From assembly GCA_950295325.1 (NCBI GenBank), contig OX485805.1, positions 53,592,758-53,656,757 on the forward strand: a DNA stretch of 64,000 nucleotides, given 5' to 3'. Positions 38,409-62,985 of this stretch are shown piece by piece. Source of the DNA: Polytrichum commune. Taxonomy: Eukaryota; Streptophyta; Polytrichopsida; Polytrichales; Polytrichaceae. Numbering within the stretch: position 1 is the stretch's first letter; the number at the start of each line of letters is the position of its first letter. A program made the translations under genes and the position numbers. Below the pieces are notes generated by a model, which saw only the letters and a program-made list of their open reading frames with translations, was not told where the DNA came from and made no database searches.

Positions 38409-41186
38409 ATGGATTCTGGTGCACACAGGCCATGCAACGAAGGAGACGAGGTTGTATACTACGTGAACAGGGATTTTGCTGGATGGGTGGAGCAGCGTGT
38501 GAGGAGGCGGGTGTACATCGAGTTGAAATTGGAATGTACTCGCAATCGATCTCGCGATGTCCAGAAGGCGCGGGATGACTGGTTGTGCCTGTATTGGAAA
38601 TCATCTTTTCCAAGCAAATTGCGCTTGACAGATCACCGGGTGGTGGGTTGCCCGTGTGGACCTGTGGATTCCACTGGCACAAAGTGGGAGCTTCCAGTCT
38701 ACCCAAATTTGAAGACAGCCAAACAAGGTAAGGACTTGAAACTGGCGTTGCAACGAGGAGACGGCTCCGTATGGGACAATTTGCAGGACAATTCTATTTG
38801 GTTGGAGCTGAACCCGGAGCTGAGGGAGCCCACTTTCCCGCCCGCTGGAGCAAGAGTGCAAGTGCGAATGTTCATGGAGCCCTCACTTGAGAGATTGGCA
38901 GCTTGCCCATCCATAGCAGGAGGTAGCGAGCAATGGCAACCGAGACCCGAACGCACACCCAAGCCACGTACTGCACCAGCCGCGGCACCGAATTTTGTGG
39001 ACCTCGAAGATGACGGCAACGATGACTATGAAGCGTCCCATCCTCACAACAGGAAGCGTCGTCATGCGGAGATGGAAGAAGGCCGTCCGAAGAAGCGTCC
39101 TCATTCAGAGATGGAAGATGGACATGGCGTTTTCCACTCTCCCCGGCAGTTCAGACCTTCGCAAAGGAAACCCAACCCAACCCCTCCCCGCCGAAGTGCT
39201 GGTGGTGAACGGCAGAGAACGCACCCGCCACGAAACCCACCACGACCGTCGCGTCCTTCGTCTGGCCCGCCTCCCCATCCCATTCTCGTAACGCCCATCC
39301 AGACTCGCAGCCCATCGCCAGAGAGGGTTGCGATTCTGGCTCCTCCTACTCCCGTTCCGCATGTGCCACATGCAATCCCTATGCCATCGCAGACGCCTGT
39401 CCCGGAGAAGGAGAACTCAACAGGTGAGCATGATATTGCTGCAACGTTACGAAAGGAGCGGCAAGCCTTTTACATCAAGGCGGCAAGCCTTTTACATCAA
39501 GGCGGCAAGTGCAGCACATGCGTCTGTGAGGATGGACATCCCCAAACCGAGTCTAAGGCCTCCAATACAACCCCCCGGTCTGTTCCACTTGTTGGTGTGT
39601 GGTTTGTTAAAATTTGATGTGGAGTCCGGCGAGTTCCCTGCTTTCCAGGAAGAGGTTGACAATTGGAAGAAGGACCCATCATTCATGGACCGGTTGTTTG
39701 CTGCCTATGGCAGATTCTACTCACCTTCGCATCAGGTACAACCTCTATGCATTTCACAATTCACCTGAGCTTTCATTTACTCATTCAGGTTTTGCAATCA
39801 CTGTTGTAACATGCGACAGTCTGGTCATTGTGGATTGCAGTCAGCATGCCCCCCTAGTCCGCCTTCTGTGCAAGCTTAGTAACATGTGTTCATGTAAGGT
39901 TTAGACGTTGTAACATGTGGAGTGGATGCGGGTGCAGGCTAGACCGGACGTAGGACCAGCAATCACAGAGACTGTCGTGGCCACAATGACCAAGGTAGGG
40001 GACGAATCCGGAATTGCGAATGAGATTGCTGCTCTATTGAGCTACATCGAACACATATTTGTCATGCGTAACCTGATGAAGCAGTGCAAGCAGTGGGACG
40101 ATGACCGTCAGGCAAAGGTTAGTGCAGCCATCGCAACGGCCATGACTCGGTGGGATGACGAGCATTACCCACGTTTGCTTGAAGCAACATGGGGTTGGCA
40201 CCCTTTCTATCCATCATTTGTGGTTAATCCCCTTTGCACCAGCTTTAAACCCGCATACCCTTTGTATCATTCAGTTGTAGAGGGTTTACATGTGCATTCT
40301 CAGCTCTTGCAACAATCTCATGTTGAAAGGGTTTACCCTGTCCCATGGTCTGTCCTTCTTCTTCGTTGTTTCCTTAAGTATCACACCCTATCCCCCCCCC
40401 TCATATCGCACCCTTTTAGTGGCGGATCCGTCGGCAATGTTACAAGATGGCTAAAGCTGGCAGAAGAAGACGAAGGAGATGGTTGGCGTGCGTGGCATTT
40501 GGCGACCACGTACTTGAAGGAAGAAGGCTTCCTTGTGTTCGCAGGGGCAAGGCCAGTGGAATCGAAACAACGGTGGCTTGTAGAGGTGGATGCAGCTTGG
40601 ATGGATTTGAAGAATCCAACCCCTGGTTGGTGGGCAGAATTGCATGTATGGTGCCAATCCACCCAGTTCAGGGCAGTCCAGGACATGGCCTTTCACGACA
40701 AGCCGTCCTGGCTCAATGCCTGGGTGATTCGTGATCAGCCCGCAACCTCTTTGCCCCCCCTTGCATGTTACGACAGCTGGCTTCAACATCGGGAGGACTT
40801 GGACATTGGCTATGTCCTTGCCAACCCACGTAGTTTTCCTCACCTCTTTTTGCAACCTGAGCTTCCAATTTCAACATCCATTCCCAATGACTTCTTTGTA
40901 ACATGCCCGTCTGTGTAACATGTCCCCTTGCAGATGTCATGGTGCCCTCGCTGGAGCGTACAAAGTACAGGGTTGTCTATTGTGTCGTGACGGAGGGTAA
41001 TCCCGGCATAATGTCGTGCCGTCACGACATTATGCCGGATGCTGTCTTCATCCTGACGGATTTGAATTTTACCGATTTTTTTGTGTAATTACATTAACCC
41101 AATTCGGACACGTAGGATTTACAATGTCCACGTGTGATGACATGTCAGCAAAGTAAAGGTAAAGTGGGGAAAATTTTACTAGAGCC

Positions 41187-41427
41187 CGTCCGCCCCCCCG
41201 TCCGCCCCCGTTCCCAACCCGAGTTCGCCCATGTTCCCCCCCGTCCGCTCCCGCTCCCCGCCCCGTCCCCGCCCCGTCCGCTCCCCCCCCCTCCGTCCGC
41301 TCCCCCCCCCCTCCGTCCGCTTCCCCGTCCGCCCCCCGTCCGCTCCCCCCCTCTCCCGTCTGCCCCCCCCCCCCCCCCCCGTCCGCTCCCCACCCTCCCC
41401 CGTCCGCTCCCCACCCTCTCCTGTCCT
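41187..41427 (+). repeat. C-rich minisatellite array 1 (CCGTCCGCTCC units)
   Basis: Short 11-14-bp units of CCGTCCGCTCCCC and variants with long C-runs, C-rich on +. It lies just inside the left end of the giant hAT, upstream of its transposase. The minus strand has many G-runs with G-quadruplex potential. Pro/Ser/Arg frames here are artefacts. Confidence 0.93.
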
Positions 41428-41784
41428 GTTATGCCTCTTTGAACCTTGGCAGTCCCGGGAGTCACTCCCAGGCACTGCTGCACCAGGGCGCTGTCCCGGG
41501 ACAGCGCCCCACTCAAATGGCCATAACTCCTAGCTCACACCTCCGATTGAGGTGTTCTTGAGCATTCTAGAATCACCACGCCATGAGCTACGCATAACTC
41601 ATGGCCTTACCCTCATGCTTCCTAGTCTCAGTGGGTGGGAGGCGTTCCCAACGCCCGGGGCCCTCACCCACACTAGGATCACTTGGGCCCTCTCACCAAT
41701 GGCGTCACAAGTCCCGGGTGTCACTCCGGGGTCCCCCTTGTGCCCATGGTGTTTCGGGCACTCCTTATGGAGAGGTGCGCGACA
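41428..41784 (-). mobile_element. Truncated LTR fragment, copy 2, between two arrays
   Basis: Matches 926-1282 of the solo LTR and ends at the authentic terminus GTGCGCGACA (41784). The other end is missing. It is bordered directly by C-rich array on both sides, so it inserted into, or was rearranged within, the minisatellite. Confidence 0.92.
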
Positions 41785-42062
41785 CCGTCCGCTCCCCACC
41801 CTCTCCCGTCCGCCCCCCCGTCCGCTCCCCCCGTCCGTCCGCTCCCCCGTCCGCTCCCCCCCCCCCCGTCCGTCCGCTCCCCCCCCACTCCCCCGTCCGC
41901 TCCCCCGTCCGCTCCCCCGTCCCCCCCTCCGTCCGCCCCCCCCGTCCGCTCCCCCCCCCTCCGTCCGCCCCCCCGTCCGCTCCCCCCCCTCCGTCCGCTC
42001 CCCCCCACTCCCCCGTCCGCCCCCCAGTCCGCTCCCCCCCCTCCGTCCGCCCCCCCGTCCGA
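41785..42062 (+). repeat. C-rich minisatellite array 2
   Basis: Same CCGTCCGCTCC-type units as array 1, starting on the base after the LTR terminus. The transposase start follows about 250 bp later. Confidence 0.93.
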
Positions 42063-42308
42063 TTCGAATACTATAAATTGAGGGTTCAAGGTGCCATTTT
42101 TGCCTCCACTGACATAGTGTGTCTCAAGTCTTTTGATTCTCCTTTGAGGAGTGAGGATTGAATGCGTGAGACCCGAATGCAGAGGATACTTTGTCCAATC
42201 TAGTGACTGTGAATTAGGGTTGCCCTTGTGGCACTCTTGAATAGGACCTAGTATGCGATCAAAGTTACTTGCTCTAACTTGTTTGTATTTGCAAGTTTTG
42301 TTGAAGTC

Positions 42309-45300
42309 ATGCCACGCCGAAATGATGCATGGGATCATTGGTACGAGGATAAGGGGATGGTTCCCGGTAAATCACAAAGGCAGGTTAAATGTAGGTTTTG
42401 CCCGTTCGTCATATCTTACCGAGGAAATAGAATGTTGGCCCACCTTGGTTATAGACCTCCTGTAGGGGGTGCTTGTGATGTTTCCACATGTAGGATGGTT
42501 CCCCCGCATATTAGGGTCTTGTTTGAACATTGCGGAGGCATTGTGCCCTTACATGTACGCATTGTAAATGAGGACTCTCCGGTGCCAGATATTGTACCTC
42601 TGGAGCCTATTATAGCGGACTCCGTAATTAGTGAAACAGAGCCTTTGCTTATGTCCCAATCCACTCAACATTCTGATGTTGTGATATATGGCACACCTCC
42701 TCGTGAACTACGTCAACTCAACATAACGGAGGGGTTCAATGTGTCAACAAAACAACTCCTTGATAAAGCATGGGCAACGGCTTTTTATGAAGCTAACATT
42801 CCTTTCAACATTGTGAGACATCCTGCATTTGTTAATGCTGTGCGTGAAACTGCCCGTCATCGAATGCTAGCCTACACACCACCATCGTACAATGCCATCC
42901 GTACGAAGTTGTTAACTGATAAAAAGGTTGACCTAGATAGGCAAGTGAAGGAGAAGCTGGGGAATTCCGTTGACAAATATGGCGTTACACTATGTTGAAA
43001 CCGACCTCTCCTAAACGTTCTTCAATGTGGCACAAAGGGAGACGTTTTCTTGGGTACCATTGACACCACAGGAAATCACAAGGATCATGTCTACGTTGCT
43101 GCTCAAATTCAACCATTTGTGGAAAAGGTTGGTCGACATAATGTGGTCCAAGTTTACACCGACAATGCCCCAGTTATGGCCTCCGCTGCTCGCGACTTGA
43201 TTCGAGCAAATCCCGATCTATATTTTCAAGGATGTGCTGCACATTGCCTAGATCTCCTCTTAGAAGATTGGGGGAAGGAGGAATGGGTGAAAAAGTTGGT
43301 AAAAAAAAGCGCCATATTTGTGTATTTGTTAAAAACCATCATGCTTCTCAAGCTATATTCCGGAGGTTGTTACCAAATCTCTCACTCCGCCTACCTGTAG
43401 AGACCCGTTTTGCAACGAACTTCATCATGATAGAACGTCTTCTCCAAGTACGCAATGCTTTGGAAAAAATGGTGGTTGATGAGGATTGGCCTACTCTAAT
43501 GCGTGATATGAGGAGGAGATCTCGCACCTCTTATATGAAGGGCTCTGCTGTGCGAAGCTTTATACGTTCTGATGGATTCTGGAACACGTGCAAAAATTTC
43601 TTGTATATGGTGATCCCGGTTGTTAAAGCTCTTCGTGTATTTGATGGCAAGGCGCCTGCAATGGGAATGGCTTGGAGGGTCATGCATGATTTACAAACCC
43701 ATATTCGTGGATTCAGTAAACCTCCATTTCGCTTAAGCCCTGAGCTTGCTGCAAATGCTATGCTAACGTTTCAAAATAGATGGAGGTTGATGTTGAATGA
43801 TCTACATTGGGCTGGAGCGATGTTAAATCCGCTTCTACATGGTTGGGCCCCACTCCATGAGGATGACAATTCGAGGACAATCCTAAATCGAGTTCTTCGC
43901 AGGTTTGCTCAAGATGAGGACACTTATGTCCAAATCCTCCACCAGTACCAAGATTTCCTTGAAAATCGAGGGCCTTTTGCTAATTCTACTGACTCGAGCG
44001 TGCATGCCGCACCTCTCCATGAATGGTGGGATGCAATGGGAGGTGGAGCTAAAGCCCTCCAAACAATAGCAAGACGTATCCTTGCACAAGTATGTTCTGC
44101 ATCCGCATGTGAACGCAATTGGAGCATGTACTCATATGTTCACAACAAGAGTCGCAATCGCTTGCAGCATAGTCGTGCTGAGGACCTCGTCTACATATAT
44201 ACCAATAGTAGGCTCATTCGACATCGGAGGGGCCCAAGACCTGCGCAATGGTACGAATTGAACGAGGTCCATTCTGACGATGACCTTGACGAAGAAGATG
44301 ACAACGAAGATGACGTGGATCCAAATGATAGGGCCGGAAATGATGATGACAACAATGTTGATGACATCGACTTTGATTTGGATGACCTCGATTCCGAGAA
44401 TCATGATTCAGAAGATGAGGATGGCAATGATAGTGATGGAAACCTTGGGGTGTTTGATTTTGATGAACCGGATGTCCCCCAACATAACAACGGAATGCAT
44501 GATGATCATGAGGGGTCTATTGGAGGACCGCCTTTTGAAACTCTCCACACTGGACAAGGGTTTCGCCCTGACCATAATGTTGCTATGGGGGCAAGTGAGA
44601 ATGTAGGAATTGAAGTAGATTCCTTGCAACCTCGGAGCGATTATCTTTCTTTTGGTGAAGGTGACAATGTACTACCCGCAAATGAGCCAACGCACGTTCA
44701 ACAGGATCCACTTCCAGCCCGAGTACATTCTGAATCCATAGACGCCTCCCTCATATCCAACCATTGTGTAGAAGATCAAACGCCCAATGTTACTGAAATA
44801 CCTACAACTCGATTCCGTGCTCTTCAAAGAACTGCATCCACCTCTACGGTGCAAGTGCATGCACAAGGTCAACGTCGTCCTCTCACTCGAAATATTGCCA
44901 ATACTTCTAGATTGGGTGTTTCACGTGCAACTACGGTGGGTGCTACTTTGGTTGCTATACACAATGTTTCAAGAAATGTTACTACTGAGGCGCCACGTCG
45001 TCAATCTGTTCGTCGACATGTTGTTGAGAACATACCAATTGCAATTCCGTCCGCATCAGTTTCACTTCCACATAGTCAATCCAATGGAACAGGTGGCCTT
45101 GGAGTTGGAGGCGGAAGTACAACGGGGGATGTTTTTATAGATGGAAGTAGAGATGAAGTGCACTCAAGTCGTGGTCCGGGTGGAGGGCGTCAGATAACTA
45201 CGAGAGGTGTCAAACGTACTAGGAAGAGGTATCAGGGAAGATCGCTTCCGTTTACTGCTGAAGACTACAATGAAGATGAGGGTAGTCCACATCTAGATGA

Positions 45301-45484
45301 AAATGGCATACAGGATGCAGAGGGCTCCCGGCCGACCAAGAAGATAATTTTCTCACAACGTGACCGAGAGTTGCATCTTCGGAGCGCGACTCCCCAAACG
45401 GATGATGATTGCAGCACAGACGAGTCTGAAGAGGACCCAAGATGTGTCAAAGCAAATGATCCCACAGTACGGATTCGAACGTAA
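42309..45484 (+). pseudogene. hAT transposase (BED finger, DUF659, hATC), broken
   Basis: The start ATG at 42309 opens a BED-type zinc finger (CRFCPFVISYRGNRMLAHLGY, with later Cys). Next comes a DUF659-like region ending GVTLC. The usual SDGWT block carrying the first catalytic aspartate is missing, and an in-frame TGA (42996-42998) sits there, followed at once by NRPLLNV. The second aspartate region (VYTDNAPVMASA) and GCAAHCLDLLLEDWG are present. A frameshift follows at an A8 run (43301-43308). The C-terminal dimerisation domain is well preserved (SACERNWSMYSYVHNKSRNR, about 44095-44155). An unusual ~400-residue tail (44230-45484) follows the hATC domain, first Asp/Glu-rich, then with basic RGVKRTRKRYQGR and another acidic end. 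It shares strand with the left end and has C-rich arrays upstream. This is the element's own transposase, now inactive. Confidence 0.88.
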
Positions 45485-46183
45485 TGGTTTTGCACAAATG
45501 TGGTATTTCGGTGCTCCCACGTACTCCCATAATTTATTACTTACGTCAAAATTGATACAAGTTACAACCTTAGGGCCTTCGGTAAGACATTTAGACCACA
45601 AAGCGAACGTTACCTTCGAAGTTGTATCATTTTATTATAGTAATAAAATTATTTATTGCATGTTTTTAAAATTTTTAAAAATATAATATGGTTGTCAACT
45701 TAGCATTGCAATTAATGTCCGACAACATGTTATGCCTTTATTAATTACTATTTTGTATTATTCTTACTGTGAATGGAGTTTTATGTTTATTTATTAAGCT
45801 TCTTAAAGAAAATACTTTTATAAATATTGCAATCCCCTATTGCTCGATTGTACATGCTTTGTTGGTGACATCCTCTTTTTGAGGACCTTTCTATCCGTTT
45901 TATATCATTATATCTTTATGTGGTATTCAATATTGACTATGTAGTCAATAGTACTTTTGGTTAGACTATCATATGAATTACTAATATTCAAGTAAGTTTT
46001 TAAAAGTTTCGAATAACATTAAAACATATGGCATCCATATGCTATCTTTTACACGATCTTAGAAATGACAACTTGTCGGTAAATCCTCTTTATATTACAT
46101 ATTCTTTGAACATGAAATATGTTCATTGTATCCAAAGTCTTCCTCCGTTTCTATACAGCTTTCTAAACATGGTACAAAAATGC
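45485..46183. other. Non-coding between convergent hAT cargo genes
   Basis: AT-rich, no gene. Probably the 3' regions of the transposase (+) and the RING gene (-). Confidence 0.5.
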
Positions 46184-48488
46184 CTAATCCGAATCTGAAT
46201 CGAGGTCTATTCTAGCTGAAGTAGATCCTCGTCGTGCTCGAGATGATTTCCCCGCTTCCATGCTTCGCGTTGTTCCACGGGTGAGGTATGGACGACTACC
46301 AGGAGACAATTGAACGGCATTACGTGGTCTAGGCCCACCATTTAGCCATCTCAATACCACATCATCCGCAACTCTATGCAAGAGTGCATCAATTGCAGCC
46401 AACTGCAACCTATTCTTGTGGTACCCCACCTCTAACTGCAATTCATATCTCGGATCACGTTCCGTAGGCATGTCATCTACATCTTCTTCCAAATCATGCT
46501 CCGATACTGATTCGAGACTTGCTGCATTGTACCAAGGAGGCTGAATGCCTCTCTTTAATTGTCTGCTGGTTGTATCCCAATGTCATTCAAGAGTTTGGTA
46601 TAAAAATCTTTTCAAGCCATGATCGGGGGGCTTGTTGGGATACAACTCGTCTGCAACATACAAAATTTGACGTGCATCCCGTGTCCAGTCGCCATCTCTG
46701 TTCTCGTGCCATAGCTCAACTTTGGCACAATTGTATAACCAACTCCACTCAATATTCTCCCCATCAAACTCTTGAAGATCGAAGGGAAAGTCCCATGGCT
46801 TTAATACCCAGTCGTTAGGCATGTAATCCCGAAGGCCAAATTGGAGGTACAAACGAGGGTGGAAGGATGATCTGCAATGAGGACATTGGCGTTTCTTGAT
46901 CATATTCCCTATTAGACATTGTGGATGGAATTGGGCCCCACATGATCCAACTTGATAGCATCCTTCCGGGCCAAATGGAGATTGACAAATCGCACACGCG
47001 GTTCCGTCGAAGACCATTGTATGTGGATTTGGCCATAACAACTCACCCCTCATGCGGAATGGATATTCATGCACTTGGGTCACATTCCAATGGTGATTTG
47101 GGTCGGTCACTTGACGCCAATCGATGCTCCCGTTTGGCAATATCCACTCATTAGTTATATCCCACCTACTAGGGTACATATGCTCGTCTTCTGGCCATGA
47201 CGTGAGCATCATGTTCCGCATTCTCTGATTGTGGTTCCATTCATTCTGGATGCTCTCAAACTCAGCTTCAAATTGACGAGCCTTGGCCATAGCAAGCAAT
47301 GTGTTTGTCCTCATATATTCTTGCGCTCCACAATCGCATCAAACAGGAATTTCTTCAACCTTGCATTTTGCTCCTCCAGTCCGTCAATCTTGGCTTCGTG
47401 ATCAACAACCACTTCATTGACCACTTGAAGTTATTGTTGGATGTCCACCACCTGCTTTTGCAAAGCCTTTATCTTTCCTCGCATTACTTCATTCCTCATA
47501 CATACTTCCAGAGCTTGTGACTTTGCAATCTTGGCCTCCTGTAAAGCTGCGTCCCTCTCTACTTCCAAAGACTGAAGGTTAAGTGATGTACTACTTGAAC
47601 TGCTAGCCTCCCCCATCGTAAGTGTTGCAACTCGATTTTCCAACTCGAAAATCATCGTTTTATACTCACGAATTTCCAACGCATGTTGCTTACGCAATTC
47701 CTCCATTCTGCTCTCCATCGGGTCCGCTCCAAGTTCACCAAGGTTTACCTCGTCTAGGACCTCATTAACCACGTCGTTGATCAGGTTGTTGACCTCGACA
47801 TTTGCCTCCATGCCTCATCCACATGCTCAAACGCCTCCTCGATGGCCATCTCCACGTCATTGGCTGGTCGTTTACGATTACGTGGTTTTTTTGGTTCCCG
47901 ACCCTCTGGAATTGGGGCCCCAGGCTCGTCCACTAGTCGAGGATTCCTCCTGAACCACTCCGGAACGGGAGTGTATGGAATATCTGGAACTGTGCATTTA
48001 GTGAATGCAATTCCAATACCCCCAAATTTTTGATTATGCAGAGCAGCCAAACTTGACTAATCCACCCTAACTCGCAACACGTGCTCCGCATACATCATAC
48101 ACGCCACCGACTTTGGAATTGCACTCTTGGGCCATCTATCCAAATTAAAGATTCTTCTAAGTATCGTTATGAATCTCCATTTTGCCTCCACGTCATCAAG
48201 CTGCATATAACTCGCACTGATGGCCTTGCAATGTCGCTCGTGACAAGGTCTTGGCCACAACCGATCAAAGTGAGGGAAGCCCACGTACTGCATTGCAGTC
48301 TTCGCTGACCACGGTTGTGGTACATTCTCCCAACCTGCCCTGGCTTTTTGTGTATTGTCATCATAAACATCCCACTCCAACCCAGCGGCCTTGCGTACAT
48401 GTGATCTGTGACAACCTGATCCTCCACTTGCCATGTCCCCAGATCCTCCACTTGCCATGTCTGGAAATCCTTCACTTGCCGTATCCAC
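46184..48488 (-). pseudogene. hAT cargo: RING-type zinc finger/coiled-coil protein, broken
   Basis: Read on minus from an ATG at 48488, one gene-like frame continues to 46184 with five lesions. These are TAG at 48057-48059, a frameshift near 47800, TAA at 47431-47433, a frameshift near 47314 and TGA at 46583-46585. Coding sense resumes directly after each, so these are decay events rather than separate genes. The N-terminal part is unrecognised. A middle acidic region leads into a coiled coil (about 47760-47340, with EVERDAALQEAKIAKSQALE and LEEQNARLKK). The C-terminal part holds a RING-like finger: CAICQSPF, then CGAQFHPQC, then CPHC (about 47000-46870). RING proteins are often ubiquitin ligases, but the spacing is atypical and activity is not shown. 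Its 5' side faces the C-rich array at 48933-49556. Confidence 0.72.
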
Positions 48489-48932
48489 CCAAATTGTAGT
48501 TTCTAATTCTAATCTAGAATTCTAATTTTTAAATTACTAATTGCACTTCATAATAGTGCTACAAAACATCCAAACATACACTTCAAAATAGTGTTGCTAT
48601 GGAATTAGTTCAAAAATGTCGTTAAAAATTAAATTTCAAAAATTCAGCACACCCTTCGAGCACCCCGCTACCAGCGCTCACGCAGAGGCCAGTTGACTGG
48701 GCGCGTCATAAGGAATATGCCAAAAAGGCAATATGCCACGTCACAAGAGAACGGGTCCACGTGGATCACACCTACAAACAGGTCAGTAAAAAGAGTATAA
48801 AAGGATCCCAAAAAAGGGATCCTAAACTCCTCCGAGCACCCCGCTACCCCGCACTCTGTAGTAGAGGAGGGTCGTCCGGGCGCCCACAAGAAGTGGAGTG
48901 GGGTATGTAAGTGGTCCCCTCCACTTATATAC
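48489..48932. promoter_or_regulatory. Upstream region of the RING cargo gene
   Basis: Non-coding, between the RING gene start (minus) and array 3. It contains CTCCGAGCACCCCGCTACC, closely repeated at about 48655-48672 and 48831-48848. It presumably holds the promoter. Confidence 0.4.
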
Positions 48933-49556
48933 CCCTCCATCCGCTCCCCGTTCCCACCCTGTTCGCACCCGTTCCCCACCCAGTCCGCACACATTCCCTA
49001 CTGTCCACGCCCGTTCCCCTCCCAGTCCGCACTCGTTCGCACCCGTCCGCACCCGTTCCCTCCCGTCCGCTCCCGTTCCCCTCCCAGTCCGCACCCGTTC
49101 CCACCCCCGTCCGCGCCCGTTCCCCCCCAGTTCGCACCCGTTCCCTCCCGTCCGCTCCCGTTCCCCTCCCAGTCCGCACCCGTTCCCGCCCCCGTCCGCA
49201 CCCGTTCCCCTCCCAGTCCGCCCACGTTCCCCTCCCAGTCCGCACCCGTTCCCTCCCAGTCCGCCCGCGTTCCCCTCCCAGTCCGCACCCGTTCCCCCCA
49301 GTCCGCACCCGTTCCCGACCGTCCGCGCCCGTTCCCCCCCCCGTCCGAGTCCACACCCGTTCCTGCCCCCGTCCGCACCCGTTCCCTTCCGTCCGCCCCC
49401 TCGTTCCCCTCCGTCCGCTCCCCTCCGTAGGCTCCCATGTTCCCCTCCGTCCGCCCTATGTTCCCTTACGTCCGCTCCAACGTTCCCTCTCGTCCGCTCC
49501 ATGTTCCCCTACGACCGTTTTAGAGTTCCCATCCGTCCGCTCCCGCGTTCCCCTTG
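48933..49556 (+). repeat. C-rich minisatellite array 3 (~22-bp unit)
   Basis: About 25 units of ~22 bp, typically GTTCCCCTCCCAGTCCGCAC, C-rich on +. Long frames on both strands in this stretch are artefacts of the repeat. Confidence 0.94.
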
Positions 49557-49569
49557 AATCTGCACTTTT

Positions 49570-49725
49570 TAATTTTTTTGGGAAGTTTGGACATAGTCTC
49601 GGTTTTTTGGCTCTCAAAAATTCATATGAAGTCCAAAAAATGAGTTCTTAGTATCCATGGATAGGTAATGAAGTCCTGTACATGAATATGCAATAATATT
49701 TCTACTGCACATTCCCACGTTCCCC
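49570..49725 (+). repeat. ~150-bp module, copy 1
   Basis: Runs from GGACATAGTCTCGG through CTCTCAAAAATTCATATGAA, TATCCATGGATAGGTAATGA and ATATTTCTACTGC. It is followed by a stub of C-rich array (CACGTTCCCCCATCCG). Nearly identical copies lie at 53045-53190 and 57470-57625. Confidence 0.9.
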
Positions 49726-50067
49726 CATCCGCACCACATCTAACTTAGGCCCTTCACAAATAATATATGTGACACTAAATATCATAACCGGTGTACTTAT
49801 TCACAAAAAACTAATGAAGGATCCCTCAAGCAACAAAGTAACCAATGTAGTATGATGACCAACAAATTATCACCCCATAGAAGTATGCAATAATAAGCGG
49901 TTGGTTGAAATTTTATAAAAAATATATATCATAGAAGTGGTATAACATATTGTACAAGTAATAGTTTTATTATTGCGACGACGGTACAAATGCCCTTTAT
50001 AAATCACATATATGAACAAACTATGCATGATTTAATATTCCACTTCATTCCGTCAACTTGACTTCCG

Positions 50068-50622
50068 TCATGGCAACCTCGTAGATGCTTGTGGCTTCCG
50101 TCGAGGGTCCATTTTTGGGAGAGGATTCGGTCGAAGTAAATCAACATAGCTAATCGTTCGGTCTTTCATCCGTTCCTTCAATGGTAGCCGATGAGGCGAT
50201 AATCCTCTCCTTTTCTTACGAAAAGGCAAAGTCCTTGAAGATTCTCCCGTTACCTTGACATCTTCAATGTCGATTGAATTGTCATCCACATCCCCGGGCT
50301 TTACCCAAATATCCACGCTCAAATCAACCACATCATTTGGATCTCCACCCACGTTTTTTGTTAGGTCCTTCTCCACTGCATTGATCTCGAATTTCACTGC
50401 ATATCATCGTTGGTCCTCCTCCTTCCTCAACTTCCATGCTTGTCTGGATTGTGAGAAGGGGGTCATGACATAGTCATCACGAAATCGATCTCTAGCACTT
50501 CTCTCATCTCTCTCACGCTCGAGTGATGGATTGAATGGAATATTGGGTTCACCTAAATTTGCTATCTCCTCATCACATCCTAGACCCTCAAACATGTCTC
50601 TCTTCTCTCCCATCCTATCCAT
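50068..50622 (-). pseudogene. hAT cargo: small unknown protein, broken
   Basis: Read on minus from the ATG at 50622, a ~184-residue frame is interrupted once by TGA at 50404-50406 and ends at 50068. The first half is Arg/Glu-rich (SLERERDERSARDRFRDDY). The second half is acidic then basic, ending KMDPRRKPQASTRLP. I recognise no domain. It lies between the module at 49570 and the tandem repeat at 50885. It could be a separate cargo gene or an exon of a larger one. The stop fits a TGG-to-TGA change. Confidence 0.45.
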
Positions 50623-50884
50623 GATACTCTACTCTCGTTATATGTATGAGTCTAAATGCTCTACTTATATACTGAGCTCAAATGACTTTATGAAATTTAC
50701 AATATTTGATGTAATCCAAGATGTAGAGGATCCAATTCTCGTTGGTAAGATAAAGACAACACAATAGGAATAAAAAGAAAGTTGGTGAAGTCAAAAAGTT
50801 AGTTGCACTTTTAGAAAAAGTCCCCCCGACACCCGCATTAGAAACCTCTTTGATACCTCTTTGAAGCTTCTATATTTGATGGGT

Positions 50885-51362
50885 TGTCCTTTCATTCAAC
50901 AAATCACATATTTGTGCTTCAACCTTAGTGGTTCGTATGGTTTCACAACCCACACGCATTCGAATGTCATTTTAATTCAACAAACTACATATTTGTGTTT
51001 CAACCTTTGTAGTTCATATGGTTTCACAACGCATTTCAGGCATCCGAATGTCATTTTCATTCGACAAATCACATATTTGTGCTTCAACCTTAGTGGTTCG
51101 TATGGTTTCACAACCCACACGCATTCGAATGTCATTTTAATTCAACAAAGTACATATTTGTGTTTCAACATTTGTGGTTCATATGGTTTCACAATGCATT
51201 TCAGGCATCCGAATGTCATTTTCATTCGACAAATCACATATTTGTGCTTCAACCTTAGTGGTTCGTATGGTTTCACAACCCACACGCATTCGAATGTCAT
51301 TTTAATTCAACAAAGTACATATTTGTGTTTCAACCTTTGTAGTTCATATGGTTTCACAACCC
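50885..51362 (+). repeat. Dimeric tandem repeat (81 + 84 bp, 165-bp higher-order unit)
   Basis: Six monomers start near 50890, 50971, 51055, 51136, 51220 and 51301. Odd and even monomers form two subtypes, distinguished by ACACGCATTCGAATG versus TTTCAGGCATCCGAATG. The higher-order unit is therefore 165 bp. Because 165 is a multiple of three, a 170-codon frame stays open through the array (50861-51373). It is more likely a by-product than a protein. Confidence 0.9.
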
Positions 51363-52440
51363 TAAACCCCTAAACCCTACGTCTACGTCATTCCAAATTG
51401 CTACCACATATGTGCCATTGTTTTGTTCTCACACTCATGTAGAAGTGTTTCCATACATGGTTTGAGGGTTTAGGTTCCCAGCTTTCCAACGAACCCACCC
51501 GCTTTTTTTTACGATGCCTACAGCGAAAGATAAACGTTCGCAAATCGCGAGGACTACTTCAAGTTGGCACAATCTCTACTTAGACATATAACTTATGGTA
51601 TACATTGGGGTTTTTAGAAGGGGTCATGAACGCACGTGATTCTCAAACATAATGTAGAGTGCATCCCCCGAGTTCCCATAGGCTTCATAAAAATATCTTA
51701 CCAACACCTTACACAAATTAGAACATTATAGAAAAGAAAATTAATCTGGTCCACATTGATATTAAACTAGGGAATTGGTGTGGGCTTAAATTTAATGTGG
51801 CCCACATTAGTGGTCAATTGGGGGGGGTGCACTATACTAAATCCGTATGAGTATATGTGAGTGCACAAAAGAGGTATTGATTTGAACTTTGTTGTATTAT
51901 GTATACATATTCTTTACAGAATTATAAGTTGTAGTTATGTAAATATATAGAATAATTTAAAAAAATATACAACATCTCTACTAACTTGTATGGTAGTGTC
52001 ACTAGATTTTATAGAATAAGGTTTATTTTATTTTAGTATTGGCTTAAACTGGTACATAAAAAGAACCAACCACATGTGAACATACGATCTTACATATCAT
52101 TTGATGGTAGACTTCAAAACAATAATTGCATTAGCTTTTATGACATGTATTACAAATCAGATTATAGGAGGATTGAATGGAAACATATGCTTAGGGACTT
52201 GGAAAAAGGGTCGGACGTGGCCTACCATGACATTCTTAACAAATTTGATTTGATTTGGGGGGTCAAAGGTCTTATTGTGACCCGTAGCAACTTAGTCCCT
52301 ACTTGGAAGGATAGGCCTCAAATGAGCATTATTTATAGATTTCCACTTAGGCTGCGCTGTTTCGGCTGGGTTGGTTGTATTTTGAATTTGAATTTTCAAT
52401 TTGTGCCAAAAAAAGAATAAGACATATATTGCAAATCTAA
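51363..52440. other. AT-rich stretch, no recognised gene
   Basis: Contains a 114-codon frame at 52076-52420 with no family motif and low confidence. Nothing else is recognisable. Confidence 0.4.
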
Positions 52441-53027
52441 GGGCCGGTTCACAATATGGCCAAACTTTGAGAGGTTCAACATTTGGACCAATGAAAATGC
52501 TGAAATGCCCAAAGTCCGTCCTCTCGGCCTTCACACTAGAGGCCGAAGTCCAAAGGACGTCGCCTCCAAAAGAGCCTAGGTGGCAACACTTTTAGGAAGT
52601 TATGGCGCCAAGAGTTCGGCCTCTCGAGCAAAGTTTGGGTATAGCAAAATGCTCAACCCAAACTTCCGTCGAGAGGCCGAACTTTTTTTTCATTAAAATA
52701 ATCAATCATTGACAAGATCTTGGCCGTTAGATTGGAGGGGTTATTTTGAGCAAGGAATAAAGTGGCATGCTCCTTTGAGTTTGGACTTTGGGCTTGGCCT
52801 TTGGAGGCTTCACACTTTGGCCATCCAAGCCGAGAGGCCGTGGGAGTTCATGGCCAAAGGTTTGGACTTTGCGCTTGGCCTTTGGAGGCTTCACCTTATG
52901 CCCAACTAAGGCTATCCTTACTATATTTTATTGGCTATTTTCAGTTCATTTCTTTGGACTCTTAACAAATTTGGGCCACTCAATCGCACGGCCTCTCGAC
53001 TTGGACGGCCATAGTGTGAACTCGGTC
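52441..53027. mobile_element. MITE-like element with inverted ends and an internal hairpin
   Basis: The left end GGGCCGGTTCACAATATGGC and the inverse of the right end, GACCGAGTTCACACTATGGC, match at 16 of 20 bases. GAGAGG follows in both. A perfect-looking hairpin of GTTCGGCCTCTCGA...TCGAGAGGCCGAAC lies inside at 52614-52682. No target duplication was found. Confidence 0.6.
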
Positions 53028-53044
53028 ATTTACACTTTTTTTTA

Positions 53045-53190
53045 AAAGTTTAGACATAGTGTCCGTTTTTTGGCTCTCAAAAATTCATATGAAGTCCAAA
53101 AAATGAGTTCTTGGTATCCATGGATAGGTAATGAAGTCCTCTACATGAATATGCAATAATATTTCTACTGCCAGAAAATACATGGACGCA
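53045..53190 (+). repeat. ~150-bp module, copy 2
   Basis: Nearly identical to the copy at 49570. It leads into array 4 through CTGCCAGAAAATACATGG, a joint shared with copy 3. Confidence 0.92.
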
Positions 53191-53204
53191 ATTCCACGTT
53201 GTTC

Positions 53205-53530
53205 CCCTGCCCCCCTTCAACCCGTTCCCTCCCGTCCGCCTCACGTTCCCCACCCGTCCGCTCCACGTTCCCCTCCGTGCGTTCACGTTCCCTCCCGTTC
53301 CCTCCAGTCCGCCCCACGTTCCCCTCCCGTCCGCCCCGCGTTCCCCTCCCGTCCGCCCCACGTTCCCCACCCGTCCGCCCCACGTTCCCCTACCGTCCGC
53401 CCCACGTTCCCCACCCGTCCGCCCCACGTTCCCCTACCGTCCGCCCCACGTTCCCTCCCGTCCGCCCCTCGTTCCCTCCCGTCCGCCCGAGTTCCCCTAC
53501 GTCCGCCCACTCGTTCCCACGCTCCCCATA
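53205..53530 (+). repeat. C-rich minisatellite array 4 (22-bp unit)
   Basis: About 14 units of CCCCACGTTCCCCACCCGTC or close variants, C-rich on +. It lies directly upstream of the kinase-like gene start. Confidence 0.93.
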
Positions 53531-53827
53531 CGTCCTTTTCGTGCCCCATGTCAAATCCGACCGGGATCCCATAATGATTGTGCACCGCTTTGCCTATATA
53601 AAGCCGTGAGGCTTTAGTTCCCCTCACTTTCCTCTCCTCCCACCACAAAGGGACCCGAGACCTTGTTGCCGTCCCAAGGATAGCGGCACCGCGCGGGTCT
53701 CAGGGGGTTTGGGAGGGCAGGGCAAATTGTGGGGGAACCCTCGCAATTTTTTTTCCAGATTCACTTGCTGATTTCTACATTCACTCACTCATTTCTACAT
53801 TCACTCACTCACGCGGTTTTTTTCACG

Positions 53828-56729
53828 ATGGAGGGGGAGGACATTGCTCCTTACCAAGACGAGGATACGAGGGTGCACCGTGCTTGGTTCCAACGCACTC
53901 CATCTGCGTATACCGGAGAGGGTACGGGAAGCGATGCCGGAAGTGGAAGTACTGCAGCCCGTCCCCCACGTCCAGATCCTTTTCGGTTTGGCGAAGAGTT
54001 CTTTGTTGTTGGTCATTCAGGAGGCAACCAAACACGTGGAAGCCATGGAACACGTGGGAGTCGGGGAAACAGTGGCCTTAGAGGGAGAACAGGAAGGGGA
54101 CCAAGCTCAGGCAGTTCCACAGATATAAATGCAGCCACTCGTGGTGAGTCCGTGCCACCACGATCTCCGACACGGCAGACATCAAGACCGGAGAGCCCTG
54201 CACGTGATGTACCTCAGGGTTCGAAGCATGGTGAAAGACGGGGACAGAAACGCCCAGCAGTTTCGGAAGGGACGGAGGAGGGGTCCGTGGTATCAGGTTC
54301 GCAATCGAGGAAAAAGAAAAATAGAGGCAAACGCGACCCGCGGATCGATGAGGCTCGAAACCATTGTAGGGTCGTGCTGTTGGAGTGGTTTAGAAATAAC
54401 AGCATGGTTTATTTGGAAAAAAAAATACCTCAATGATGGTACAAAGGGTTTAGAGTTGGTGAGGAACGAATTGATGCTTATTCTCACGGAAGCCACGGCT
54501 GGACCGGAGTTTGAAGAAGCTAGGGGCATGAACGATTGGGACACCTGGATTGAACAACAAGCCAGGGAAGCAATCTACAATCCAACAATGGCATATGATG
54601 CTCTGCATCCTGGCGAGGGAAATAGTAGTGGCAGGAAGTCCGAGCTGTACATGAAGCTAGAGAATTGGAAAAGAGGCGTAATAGCAGCAAAAAGAACATC
54701 CGCCCGCAACCTTCCCATTTTTATTGACAGGCAGATGGCAGACAACATTGCCACTCAGGGCCGGCAGGGTGTCATATGGTTGCCTAGGAATGCGGAGATC
54801 AAAGCCTTGGATAAGAAAATCTTCCAAGGGACCTTCGGAGTGGTGCGGAGAGTCACAATTCATGGAGCATCATTCATCCCTAGCTGGATAGAGTGGGCTG
54901 GGAAGACCATGAAGGCCACGAATAGTCTGGAAAACCGAAAGGAGCGTTCAATTGAAGCATTGGCCGGCGTGTCCAGTAGATCATCCTGGGGTAATCAAGC
55001 TACAATACCTCAATATGAAAACATACGAATCCTATTCGATGTGGTGGAATGGAGGCTCCTTGAAGAACATGAGGGTCTATGACTTCAGCGTTCCGGAAAC
55101 CCACGAGCGCACAATCCTTCAAATGCCTGGGGCAGACTTTGAAGCACGGAAACGGTTGGTTGTATATCGAAGGCATCGAGCTTATTTGGCATGGGCTTTA
55201 ATGTGCATTGTGGATGTAGTGCACAAGCATGACGTGTTGCACAATGACCTTAATCCCAACAATGTCATGCTGCATTTCCCACAAGACCATGATAACACGG
55301 TTTACATTGGTGTGTGTGATTGGGGCATGGCATCCTGGGGAGGTGAAGACGCACTGTCGCAACCCTTGCTAGCCCCCCCTTGACCATCTTGCCAATTTTC
55401 AATTCTAGCAAAGGTTACGAGCGCTAACCATTCGCATTCCGCCATGCTAATGGTTAGCTCCTCCTACCCCGGACCTTATAGTTCATAGGAGGGAACCAAC
55501 CCTCCTACTTTGCTTTCGGGACTCACCCCTTAATCGGTAACTCATTTCTTGGATGTGGACTTCCATCCATGGAAGTCCAATCCTATGTTGATCATCGCGT
55601 TGCCGGAGCAACACTACAACAACCCGAACCATACTAGGCAACTATGGCCTCACAATGGGCCAAAGCCCATGGAGGCCTTGCCGTTCGGCCTCGGGTGGGT
55701 GAGGCCACACCACCTCACCCATATAAGCCTCTAGGACTCTACGCGGGGCCCCTACCCCACCGTCAACCAACCTCTTGTCTCTCTACCAAGAGTTGGGGCC
55801 AAGTGGACATTCTCCCTTAGCCGCTGGGCCTAGAAGCCCCCAGCAGCTTCAGACCATCATAACTTCCTTGTATGATGTCTGATTCCAGCAACCAACCACT
55901 CCATCTTCATCTACGCTTCACGTAGATGCCGATGGACTCCTCACTTGCCCCATTCGGGCAAGTGGTGAGGAAGTTATGCCTGTTTGAACCCTGGCAGTCC
56001 CGGGAATCACTCCCAGGCACTGCTGTAGCAGGGCGCTGTCCCGGGACAGCGCCCCACTCAAATGGCCATAACTCCTAGCTCACACCTCCGATTGAGGTGT
56101 TCTTGAGCATTCTAGAATCACCACGCCATGAGCTACGCATAGCTCATGGCCTCACCCTCATGCCTCCTAGTCTCCGTGGGTAGGAGGCGTTCCCAACGCC
56201 CGGGGCCCTCACCCACACTAGGATCACTTGGGCCCTCTCACCAACGGCGCCACAAGTCCCGGGTGTCACTCCGGGGTCCCCCTTGTGCCCATGGTGTTTC
56301 GGCCACTCCTCATGGAGAGGTGCGCGACACACACCCTCCAACTATGGAAGAAATTCAGTGGATGAGATGAACAAGCACAAAGCAAAATACAACTGTGCTG
56401 GTCCAGAATTATTCCATGTACGAGGGCAGCGTGGAACATCCACCTCTCCGGTGAGGATGGCTCGGAAACATAGGCACACGTTTCTCTCGGAGTCCTTCTC
56501 AGTGGGTGCTTTAGCAAAGAAGATTTATGCCAGGGATGCGACTTCCCCCTTGTTTCAGCTAAACAGTGATCCAAATGGCTTGAATATGCGGTTTGAGTTA
56601 GCATTGGATTCATTGACGAAGACCAATCCAGCGGAAAGGTCAACCATCACACACGTAGTGAACATTTTGAAGTCCCCTCCATACAACATGGTTAACCCGA
56701 CAATGTGCTTCCGTGACACTGCAAAATAG
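53828..56729 (+). pseudogene. hAT cargo: protein-kinase-like gene, frameshifted and split by a solo LTR
   Basis: The ATG at 53828 (TTCACGATGG) starts a ~190-residue Gly/Arg/Ser-rich low-complexity N-terminus with a basic patch (RKKKNRGKR). A frameshift at an A9 run (54417-54425) leads into a linker and the kinase domain. Motifs in order are GTFGVVRRV (glycine loop), AGKTMK (likely the ATP-binding lysine), a second frameshift at about 54958-54975, HPGVIKL, GGSLKNM, the catalytic loop HNDLNPNNVML and DWG in place of DFG. The solo LTR at 55355-56329 splits the gene between DWG and the activation segment. The frame then gives AGPELF (APE motif), SESFSVGALAKKIY and NPAERSTITHVVNIL, stopping at 56729. 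The HxD, N and DWG aspartate are all kept, so the ancestor was probably an active kinase. The C-rich array at 53205-53530 sits just upstream. The host family of origin is unknown. Confidence 0.82.
55355..56329 (-). mobile_element. Solo LTR, copy 3 (975 bp), inside the kinase gene
   Basis: The same TGTCGCAACC to GTGCGCGACA ends and hairpin-rich body as 297-1282. The flanks CGCAC (55350-55354) and CACAC (56330-56334) form a 5-bp duplication with one mismatch. The kinase frame stops here and resumes after it. Confidence 0.93.
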
Positions 56730-57469
56730 ATTTTTTTTATTTTTTTTGCAGCAATTTTGAATCATACCAATTTTGTAACCGTTGGAGATGTAAATAAAGC
56801 CATCATTTTTTCATACAAAACTTGTATATTGTATGAGGTTTATGGATCTTAGTGCAATGTTCATACTCCATGAGGCTTTTGCTCCATGATCGAGAAGAAG
56901 TCTATGGGAGGCTAACCAAGGTTCTCACCTCTCGTGAGGCCACATCGTTCTTTCACATCGTTGTTATCACATCCATGTGCTAAGTTCAAGTTACCTATAG
57001 TTGTTTGTGATATGTCTTGCCAAAATGCAATTACCTATATTTATTCTAATTTTGGTATGCCACAAAATATAGTCAACTATAGTTATATCTAGTTAACTAA
57101 AGTTGAGCACAATATTGCAATAGTTATATCGGTTGTACACGTGATCCTCAACATCTCTAAATGTTAACTTTCTTCTACTCCCCACATATTGCACACTATA
57201 AATGTTAAACGTGTTAAATGTTAACAAAATGGTACTCCCTTCTTTGTAAATCTGACTCTATAAACGTTAACGGATGAAATACAACCATAATATGGATGAT
57301 AAAAACTACACATCCAGTTACATTGATTCATATTCACTCGTGATTTGTAAACTTGATATTGAATAAAGTTTTGATTGGGTGTGCAATTTTATGAATGGTA
57401 TTCTCTCACAAGGACTCTTCACAATTGCTTATATTTATATTTATATAATTCAGAAACAATTTTTTTTGG
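56730..57469. other. 3' flank of the kinase gene, no gene seen
   Basis: AT-rich, probably the 3' untranslated region (AATAAA-like ATAAATAAAGCC near 56790) then spacer. Confidence 0.45.
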
Positions 57470-57625
57470 AATTTTGGACATAGTCTCGGTTTTTTGGCTC
57501 TCAAAAATTCATATGAAGTTCAAAAAATGAGTTCTTGGTATCCATGGATAGGTAATGAAGTCCTCTACATGAATATGCAATATTATTTCTACTGCCAGAA
57601 AATATATGGCCGCAATTGCACGCTG
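57470..57625 (+). repeat. ~150-bp module, copy 3
   Basis: Nearly identical to copies at 49570 and 53045, and leads directly into array 5. Confidence 0.92.
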
Positions 57626-57935
57626 TTCCCCTCCCCCCCGCTCCCCTCCGCGTTCCCCCGTCCGCTCCAGCGTTCCCCCCCGTTCCCAACCCCCCTCCCC
57701 CTCCGTCCGCCCCACGCCCCACCCCCGTCCGCTCCACCCCCTCCCCTCCGTCCGCTCCACCCCCCCGTCCGTCCGCTCCACCCCCTCCCCTCCGTCCGCT
57801 CCACCCCCCCATCCGTCCGCTCCACCCCCTCCCCTCCGTCCGCTCCACCCCCCCATCCGTCCGCTCCACCCCCCTCCCCCGTCCGCCCCCGTCCACCCCA
57901 CCCGTCCGCCCCCGTCCGCCCCACACCCTCCTTAG
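57626..57935 (+). repeat. C-rich minisatellite array 5 (~22-24-bp unit)
   Basis: Units of CCGTCCGCTCCACCCCCTCC and variants, C-rich on +, close to the right end of the giant hAT. Confidence 0.93.
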
Positions 57936-58200
57936 TCATATTTTTCTACTTTGATTTTAACAGAATGATAAGCACAATGGCAAAATGGTTTACTTGGCAA
58001 GGGAAATATACACATCCACGTCGGCGTTTTCTGCCACATAGGATGCCACCTTGGCAAGAAGGTAAGTATTTTACCCACCCTAGTCCATTCACCCTATGTT
58101 GACCCTACGTGGACCCTATTGTGTCGTGACGGAGGGGTCCGTCACGACACGACACGACATGACGGCACGACACCGTCATGACGTCGCGATAGACAACCCT
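57936..58200. repeat. Right subterminal region of the giant hAT
   Basis: Clustered GTCGTGACGG and CCGTCACGAC motifs and CACGACACGACACGACATGA lie next to the inverted end (58121-58200). They mirror the motifs of the left end at 40984-41030. They are likely transposase-binding repeats. Confidence 0.7.
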
Positions 58201-58432
58201 GACAGAGTACATGTATGAGCTTCACAATATTGCCGAAAATATTGTGAGAGAGCGTTGCAAGCATTCGGAAGTGCACCTGCCAACACATACAGGTGGTGCT
58301 AAAAGTTACAAGGTGGCAGATGCTTCGGAAGACGTGCAGCCCCCGCCGGACCCACACCCCGTAGACGATTGTCCATCCATACCTACAGACGTGCATGTTA
58401 CACCTGTCTTCCACATACCCATGACTCAGGAG

Positions 58433-62381: not shown

Positions 62382-62985
62382 TGTCGCGCACCTCTCCATG
62401 AGGAGTGCCCGAAACACCATGGGCACAAGGGGGACCCCGGAGTGACACCCGGGACTTGTGGCGCCGTTGGTGAGAGGGCCCAAGTGATCCTAGTGTGGGT
62501 GAGGCCCCCGGGCGTTGGGAACGCCTCCCATCCATGAAGACTAGGAGGCACAAGGGTAAGGCCATGAGCTATGCGTAGCTCATGGCGTGGTGATTCTAGA
62601 ATGCTCAAGAACACCTCAATCGGAGGTGTGAGCTAGGAGTTATGGCCATTTGAGTGGGGCGCTGTCCCGGGACAGCGCCCTGGTACAGCAGTGCCTGGGA
62701 GTGATTCCCGGGACTGCCAAGGTTCAAACAGGCATAACTTCCTCACCACTTGCCCGAATGGGGCAAGTGAGGAGTCCATCGGCATCTACGTGAAGCGTAG
62801 ATGAAGATGAAGTGGTTGGTTGCTGGAATCAGACATCATACAAGGAAGTTATGATGGTCTGAAGCTGCTGGGGGCTTCTAGGCCCAGCGGCTAAGGGAAA
62901 ATGTCCACTTGGCCCCAACTCTTGGTAGAGAGACAAGAGGTTGGTTGACGGTGGGGTAGGGGCCCCGCGTGCAAGGGTTGCGACA
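62382..62985 (+). mobile_element. 5' LTR of a retrotransposon (604 bp, internally deleted)
   Basis: Starts TGTCGCGCAC, ends GGGTTGCGACA, and is followed by a primer-binding site. It is the same family as the solo LTRs, in the opposite orientation. It lacks about 380 bp present in the solo LTRs, between CCCCGCGT and GCAAGGGTT. It interrupts the MULE transposase. The 3' LTR is outside the window. Confidence 0.93.

Follow-up and report, generated by a model that had tools for sequence, protein, structure and literature searches.

The 64,000-nucleotide stretch of Polytrichum commune DNA analysed here (the window) contains a 17,234-bp block at 40968-58201, the worn copy of a hAT element. Very probably it is a decaying member of a giant hAT transposon family with many copies, whose open frames encode a transposase, a kinase-like and a RING-like protein in modules separated by C-rich arrays. 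Genome-wide comparison shows that the two ends bound an inserting unit that makes 8-bp duplications, and that most copies keep the gene set. The block is one of a family of roughly a hundred members, with elements mostly 11-18 kb long. Its kinase-like and RING-like genes look like standing components of that family rather than chance passengers, because both stand near 86 of the 110 transposase loci, recur in diverged subfamilies, bear signs of purifying selection, and have counterparts in very old relics.

Ends, target duplications and an empty site

The block terminates in exact 13-bp inverted repeats, CAGGGTTGTCTAT at 40968-40980 (+) and 58189-58201 (-), as the initial annotation of this DNA had proposed. 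When up to two mismatches were allowed, these two were the only matches in the window, but 1.8 are expected by chance, so the window alone is insufficient proof of the ends. The flanking 8 bp are ACAAAGTA on the left and ACAGAGTA on the right, identical at 7/8 positions. Both this duplication and the matching subterminal motifs reported in the annotation were recovered: each terminal 250 bp contains two GTCGTGACGG sites, counting both strands, and the interior none. Across the family sequences that we examined there are 1-3 such motifs per terminal 250 bp and zero in the interior, a pattern that would be expected of transposase-binding sites.

A query made of the window flanks joined by a single 8 bp found an uninterrupted match on contig C7, 97% identical over the full 118 bases, in which ACAGAGTA is present once. 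The same query gave 17 matches in all, namely the C7 site, 14 other junction-spanning places (73-88%) and the window's own two flanks. The C7 site is the uninterrupted form of a repeated (paralogous) locus, and with its single 8 bp it shows that the block was inserted whole, as a single unit. The simplest reading of the 7/8 match between the duplication copies is that the left one changed afterwards.

The genome searched comprises 64 contigs with a total of 407.8 Mb; seven contigs are large, which suggests n=7. It holds 1009 exact matches to the 13-bp end (494 + 515), compared with 0 + 1 for the reversed control. Two classes of end can be told apart, the left usually having TGTGTCGTGACGGAGG after the 13-mer and the right usually C[G/C]CGACGTCATGACGG. 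Among 32 long end pairs, the window element (7/8) included, the 8-bp duplications are exact in 27, at 7/8 in 2 and unmatched in 3. All 27 exact duplications differ from one another, and the pairs lie on all seven large contigs. Exact duplications flank six of the eight long pairs on C1 that were chosen by their ends, two of the three copies chosen by their genes (C7:0.51 and C4:24.41, with C1:46.39 at 7/8), and 19 of 20 further long pairs from the seven large contigs. Together with the empty site, these results bear out the annotation's view of a single giant element that moved as a unit. Short elements behave likewise: of 14 with no room for the gene set (0.5-1.8 kb), 12 have exact duplications, one is at 7/8 and one at 6/8.

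Two of the three unmatched pairs, C1:2.52 and C3:37.99, have unlike flanks and may be recombinants. The third, C1:24625648-24636481, was rejected as an element; it has two outward-facing right ends and palindromic flanks, consistent with a large inverted duplication, and it illustrates that pairing ends by motif alone misleads. At C1:21.85-21.97 Mb a block is triplicated, with one giant copy and several short ones in each unit.

The gene set and its modules

Genome queries returned 118 transposase, 137 RING and 122 kinase matches. Same-strand matches less than 6 kb apart were merged into 110 transposase loci; the locus count used 118/118 transposase, 127/137 RING and 115/122 kinase matches, those left out are distant (29-45% identity) and entered the test of old co-location below instead. 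A RING gene lies within 20 kb of 99 transposase loci, always antisense and downstream, and a kinase gene within 25 kb of 91. Both accompany the transposase at 86 loci and neither does at six, which comprise one full-length gene with one stop (C3:48424454), one gene split in two pieces and four partial ones. Conversely, 19 kinase loci and five RING loci have no transposase match in range.

The ends lead to the same set. From 84 left and 41 right ends listed, we obtained 24 inward pairs of the strictest types, 20 of which enclose all three genes; one pair is without RING, one without transposase and one without kinase, and the last is a derivative of 1.0 kb. The 23 long pairs measure 8.1-31.7 kb, 18 of them 11.5-18.4 kb. 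Duplications were checked in 20 + 2 of the 24, leaving out the 1.0-kb pair and a 26.9-kb pair. The eight C1 pairs mentioned above were chosen by ends, so that their ends are no test of the linkage between genes and ends; all three gene-chosen copies (C1:46.39, C7:0.51 and C4:24.41) have family ends, one with one mismatch.

These counts bear on several points raised by the annotation. The search it had recommended, for end pairs 10-25 kb apart elsewhere in the genome, finds them with the same genes and different duplications. Its suggestion that this element had assembled several genes as cargo has to be given up, the same set being present at 86 of 110 loci. It had named two observations that would speak against a single element. 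The first, ends flanking the transposase only, has no intact example among the 110 loci. As for the second, cargo with ends of its own, the gene-chosen copies carry the family's ends, while a kinase relative does occur in an unrelated-looking repeat family.

That repeat family is a second multicopy element of about 15 kb (C6:9370000-9388900 and C4:20344500-20361500) with no DNA match to the first. Its kinase is about 28% identical to that of the giant hAT family and is present in about ten copies at 87-95%. The element also encodes a long protein ending in a SWIM-like motif (identified by eye) and other open reading frames; Pfam named the kinase only.

We derived the anatomy of the family from mapping twelve sequences. 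In the window form, the order is left end, array, transposase, RING, array, linker with 82-bp tandem repeats, array, kinase, array and right end. The parts of the window element, which is decayed in all three genes, are as follows.

40968..58201 (+): whole element, from end motifs, duplication and empty site
40960..40967: left target-duplication copy, ACAAAGTA; the empty site has ACAGAGTA once
40968..40980 (+): left terminal inverted repeat (TIR), from motif search
40984..40993 (+): left subterminal GTCGTGACGG, one of two; probable transposase-binding site
41184..41446: C-rich array, first part, between left end and transposase gene
41775..42075: C-rich array, second part, parted from the first by an inserted repeat
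42309..45484 (+): hAT transposase gene; one frameshift
46184..48480 (-): RING-like gene; three stops and two frameshifts
48932..49554: C-rich array between RING gene and linker
49569..49752 (+): 184-bp repeat, copy 1, adjoining the array
49951..51384: linker with 82/165-bp tandem repeats; no conserved gene noticed
53032..53215 (+): 184-bp repeat, copy 2, adjoining an array
53223..53518: C-rich array upstream of the kinase-like gene
53828..56729 (+): protein-kinase-like gene; two frameshifts and an insertion at about 55355-56309
57456..57639 (+): 184-bp repeat, copy 3, adjoining an array
57635..57922: C-rich array before the right end
58123..58132 (+): right subterminal GTCGTGACGG, one of two; putative binding site
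58189..58201 (-): right terminal inverted repeat, from motif search
58202..58209: right target-duplication copy, ACAGAGTA, from flank comparison and empty site

A separate repeat of at least 300 bp occurs at 41428-41727 and, 96% identical, at 55973-56272, the second copy lying inside the kinase gene. By eye, a third copy can be made out from the translation outside the element, within 61859-62632 (-).

At least three module arrangements exist. The form seen most often has the kinase block turned round together with its array, and in subfamily B the kinase block and linker precede the transposase. Relative to the transposase, the kinase of the 91 loci is downstream and antisense in 50, downstream on the same strand in 32 (the window form) and upstream on the same strand in 9. 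Where modules are inverted, the breakpoints coincide with arrays and 184-bp repeats or lie right next to them. The annotation's C-rich arrays beside genes are real and mostly tied to the family: one 16-bp array unit was listed at 75 sites over C1 up to 34.63 Mb, and 71 of these are no more than 10 kb from an exact TIR, versus 3.8% of random points; the remaining four form one cluster. Between subfamilies A and B, synonymous divergence (dS) is about 0.11 for the transposase, 0.26 for RING and 0.20 for the kinase, and identity drops abruptly from 90-93% in the transposase to 82% in the RING gene. Since genes that travel together should share dS, modules have probably been exchanged between subfamilies; the alternative is that mutation rates differ between modules.

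More distant matches suggest that the association is old. At C4:33.9455-33.9645 Mb, about 15 kb hold transposase pieces at 27-42% identity (about 2.1 kb), a kinase at 28% (245 amino acids) and a RING-like motif at 40% (47 amino acids); no family-like end pair and no array was found in this relic. At C2:55.50 Mb, transposase (34%) and RING (35%) matches lie within about 1 kb, and C1:17.22 Mb has a kinase (29%), a RING relative and a 25-amino-acid BED-like match. Distant matches form five close pairs against 0.11 expected at random, and 0 of 5000 runs reach five, in a test by random placement that ignores repeat clustering, with lists merged by eye and with five pairs that come from three loci and are not independent. 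The old co-location of the three gene kinds is thus suggestive. A more far-reaching possibility, which we find on balance doubtful, is an ancient three-gene hAT lineage in which the kinase, as a transposition factor, and the RING-like protein already partnered the transposase when transposases had yet to diverge to 27-42% identity; strand-asymmetric C-rich arrays would in that case be recombination joints at which modules are flipped and are swapped between subfamilies. We know of no kinase that acts as a transposition partner of a hAT.

Proteins, selection and competing explanations

Intron-free open frames encode a transposase of 1060-1065 amino acids in six subfamily A copies and 1002 in one B copy, a RING-like protein of 777 (one open copy fetched) and a kinase-like protein of 635-638. 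The transposase carries the hATC dimerisation domain (PF05699), above the cut-off at E 3.8e-10 and 5e-10, the latter in the window copy, and in an open-frame family copy DUF659 (PF04937, E=6.5e-35), which we take to be a domain of plant hATs. The annotation had described a BED/hATC transposase: its hATC part stands, and its BED zinc finger amounts to a weak match under the cut-off (E=0.1) in the window copy, not reported in the scan of the open copy. The kinase and RING genes that it had placed in the block are present. In the window copy, the RING-like domain PF13639 scores above its cut-off (E=1.6e-6) and the kinase domain PF00069 under its own (E=3.7e-6), with PF01636 (APH) just above its own. 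The kinase-like proteins of subfamilies A and B share a conserved N-terminal region and show the motifs GTFGVV or GSYGVV, HNDLNPNN and DWG, presumably the G-loop, HxD...N and DxG of protein kinases. The RING-like motif reads CAIC...CGAQFHPQC...CPHC and is preceded by long helices, predicted at low confidence. Sequence searches of the PDB gave RING domains only for the RING protein (RNF38 and others), no match for the kinase at E up to 0.01 and none for the transposase at E up to 1. An origin from giant viruses is unsupported, viral contigs having no kinase or RING relative at the sensitivity of single-sequence patterns.

We estimated the ratio of nonsynonymous to synonymous divergence (dN/dS) by the Nei-Gojobori method between a subfamily A reference copy and two B copies plus one intermediate. 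In frame, the ratio was 0.40-0.45 for the transposase, 0.53-0.55 for RING and 0.47-0.58 for the kinase (all p <0.002). With the two B copies only, the values were 0.44-0.45, 0.55 and 0.47-0.49 (p 2.3e-6 or less), against 0.71-1.18 out of frame. The other two frames of the same genes gave 0.70-1.18, with 17 of 18 comparisons not significant and one at p=0.011. This comparison shows what appears to be purifying selection on all three genes between subfamilies. Within subfamily A most ratios are higher, up to about 1, as expected from the decay of dead copies.

Upkeep of the frames differs among the genes. Open-frame length, which can run on into an array, was unused as a measure of intactness; stops were instead read by eye from near-full-length matches (transposase 85/118, RING 73/137, kinase 104/122). 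Per 1000 codons there are 0.93 stops in the transposase, 1.24 in the kinase and 6.04 in RING; the kinase density is statistically indistinguishable from that of the transposase (Fisher p=0.35), and RING differs from both (p <1e-12), its excess being 3-4 fold after correction for codons one transition from a stop. When ten fetched copies were compared with one reference, the transposases had 1 stop, the kinases 0 and the RINGs 32, and frameshifts affected 2/10, 5/10 (three at one A-run) and 7/10, respectively; one copy was without most of its transposase and two without part of RING. Of nine more kinase genes, sampled at regular intervals along the match list, six were unbroken; of the others, one had a frameshift only, one a stop only and one two stops and a frameshift. 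Over both samples 11/19 kinase genes are unbroken. Frame upkeep is therefore intermediate to good in the kinase and poor in RING. At kinase codon 195 (about 54.4 kb in the window), an additional base in an A-run is shared with C7:0.51 and C4:24.41; in three such diverged copies this could be recurrent slippage or a sequencing or assembly error, and a programmed frameshift is less likely.

We infer the following roles. The transposase would recognise the 13-bp ends and the subterminal GTCGTGACGG sites. The kinase-like gene has a reading frame far better preserved than that of RING and roughly on a par with the transposase's, and for this reason its product may work for the element, for instance through modification of the transposase or a host factor. 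The RING-like protein could be a helper in trans or in some lineages only, perhaps against host silencing, which is a guess. Lineages still moving would need transposase and kinase, with RING dispensable, supplied in trans or recently relaxed, and recombination at arrays would re-order the modules. These functions of the two extra proteins are read from sequence.

Several observations weigh against such an interpretation. Two copies with exact duplications, of 8.1 and 10.7 kb, have no kinase and no transposase match, respectively; neither gene need lie in a moving copy, then, unless it was lost after insertion, and single copies may have been served in trans. Kinase and RING matches within 20-25 kb of a transposase may sometimes belong to a neighbouring copy. 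The kinase score is under the Pfam cut-off in the open copy too, and structure predictions from three-row alignments failed, with a mean pLDDT (predicted local distance difference test) of 30 for the kinase-like and 38 for the RING-like protein. Compared with what we take as the eight-ligand RING pattern, C-G-A-Q-F-H-P-Q-C is without the fourth zinc ligand, making RING E3 ligase activity doubtful. The linker, read as coding for a control, gave dN/dS of 0.67-0.73 (not significant), which means that neutrality may correspond to a ratio under 1 and that the signal of selection is of moderate strength; the kinase ratio of A vs M is 0.58 (p 0.0017). The RING stops, at 6.04 per 1000 codons, are partly shared by descent and not independent counts. 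Finally, kinase frameshifts in 5/10 copies, against 2/10 for the transposase, weaken the argument from the kinase.

An ordinary hAT family could once have captured two host genes and copied them along with its ends as inert passengers. Plant DNA transposons do capture host sequence, most RING copies examined are broken, half of the ten fetched kinases are frameshifted, and copies without one gene still have exact duplications. We nevertheless consider this unlikely: for both genes the in-frame dN/dS between subfamilies is below the out-of-frame values, stops are as rare in the kinase as in the transposase, the relics pair the same gene kinds, and no host donor gene was evident in the 3 of 7 distant kinase matches inspected (one other repeat family and two relics). 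Far less probable is a nested block, in which two unrelated repeats, each bringing a kinase or a RING gene, inserted into a small, normal hAT. Module boundaries do carry arrays and 184-bp repeats, and an unrelated repeat has inserted twice into the window copy, but the same blocks stand together at 86/110 loci and inside the same ends in 20/24 listed pairs, no intact transposase-only copy was seen among the 110 loci, and family arrays bound the kinase and RING modules in mapped copies. Segmental duplication or assembly artefact in place of transposition has a negligible chance. Larger blocks do seem to have been copied in the triplicate near 21.9 Mb of C1 and in two duplicates near 35.9 Mb of C2, but for the family as a whole this explanation is refuted by the 27/32 long pairs with mutually different exact duplications on seven large contigs and by the empty site.

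Relation to known transposons and neighbouring features

The hAT elements of plants, such as Ac and Tam3 relatives, are usually a few kb long with one gene and have 8-bp duplications, short TIRs, an hATC domain and subterminal repeats. The giant hAT family described here shares the 8-bp duplications, 13-bp TIRs, hATC and DUF659, subterminal repeats and short non-autonomous derivatives; it differs in being mostly 11-18 kb and in its two further recurrent genes. Starships are giant fungal transposons with a tyrosine recombinase and diverse cargo. They resemble the family, in outline, in being giant and gene-carrying, whereas here the transposase is of hAT type, the host a plant and the gene set constant; no tyrosine recombinase captain is among the Pfam matches of the subset of open reading frames scanned. 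Among Mutator-like elements (MULE), VANDAL has an anti-silencing helper gene beside its transposase, a similar arrangement in another superfamily with another protein.

As far as the consulted portion of its description goes, ToxhAT of fungal wheat pathogens is a 14.3-kb, TIR-bounded element with a hAT-like transposase and further genes. Its 74-bp TIRs share about 92% identity, its authors found no target duplications, and a second transposon is nested in it besides other cargo (PMC6737239). In our family, by comparison, the TIRs measure 13 bp, the 8-bp duplications are exact and the gene set is constant, and the uniformity of that set at 86/110 loci is unlike a composite that gained cargo through nested transposons. 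Fungal DNA transposons, including hAT7, carry TET/JBP genes, and those hATs make 7-bp duplications; IS3EU elements combine a transposase, TET/JBP and an alpha-kinase, with kinase order and orientation conserved (PMC12730594, in the sections consulted). The likeness lies in a recurrent accessory gene and, in one lineage, a kinase gene, but that kinase is an alpha-kinase in another superfamily, and the word RING is absent from those sections. In a review of giant transposons the word hAT is absent from the main text as consulted (PMC6431247). Among the open-access papers listed by our searches, no title or abstract opening appears to describe a hAT with kinase and RING genes. Giant or accessory-gene DNA transposons are already known in fungi; what is new is a recurrent kinase and RING-like set, apparently under selection between subfamilies, and its modular re-ordering.

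If our reading is true, about one hundred copies have retained a kinase-like and a RING-like gene while subfamilies diverged, which would mean that a plant DNA transposon possesses regulatory machinery of its own. Copies with and without the kinase can be compared, exact duplications marking success, which offers a handle on what the transposon gains from the kinase. Module flipping at arrays would provide a natural record of how a composite mobile element is built.

Scans of the window against Rfam (gathering threshold) and for tRNAs found nothing. Just right of the element, at 60281-61651 (-), lies a Mutator-like transposase (PF10551, E 1.3e-7, with a weak SWIM match), and at 29116-29631 (-) there is a xyloglucan endotransglycosylase-type exon with PF06955 (XET_C) and PF00722.

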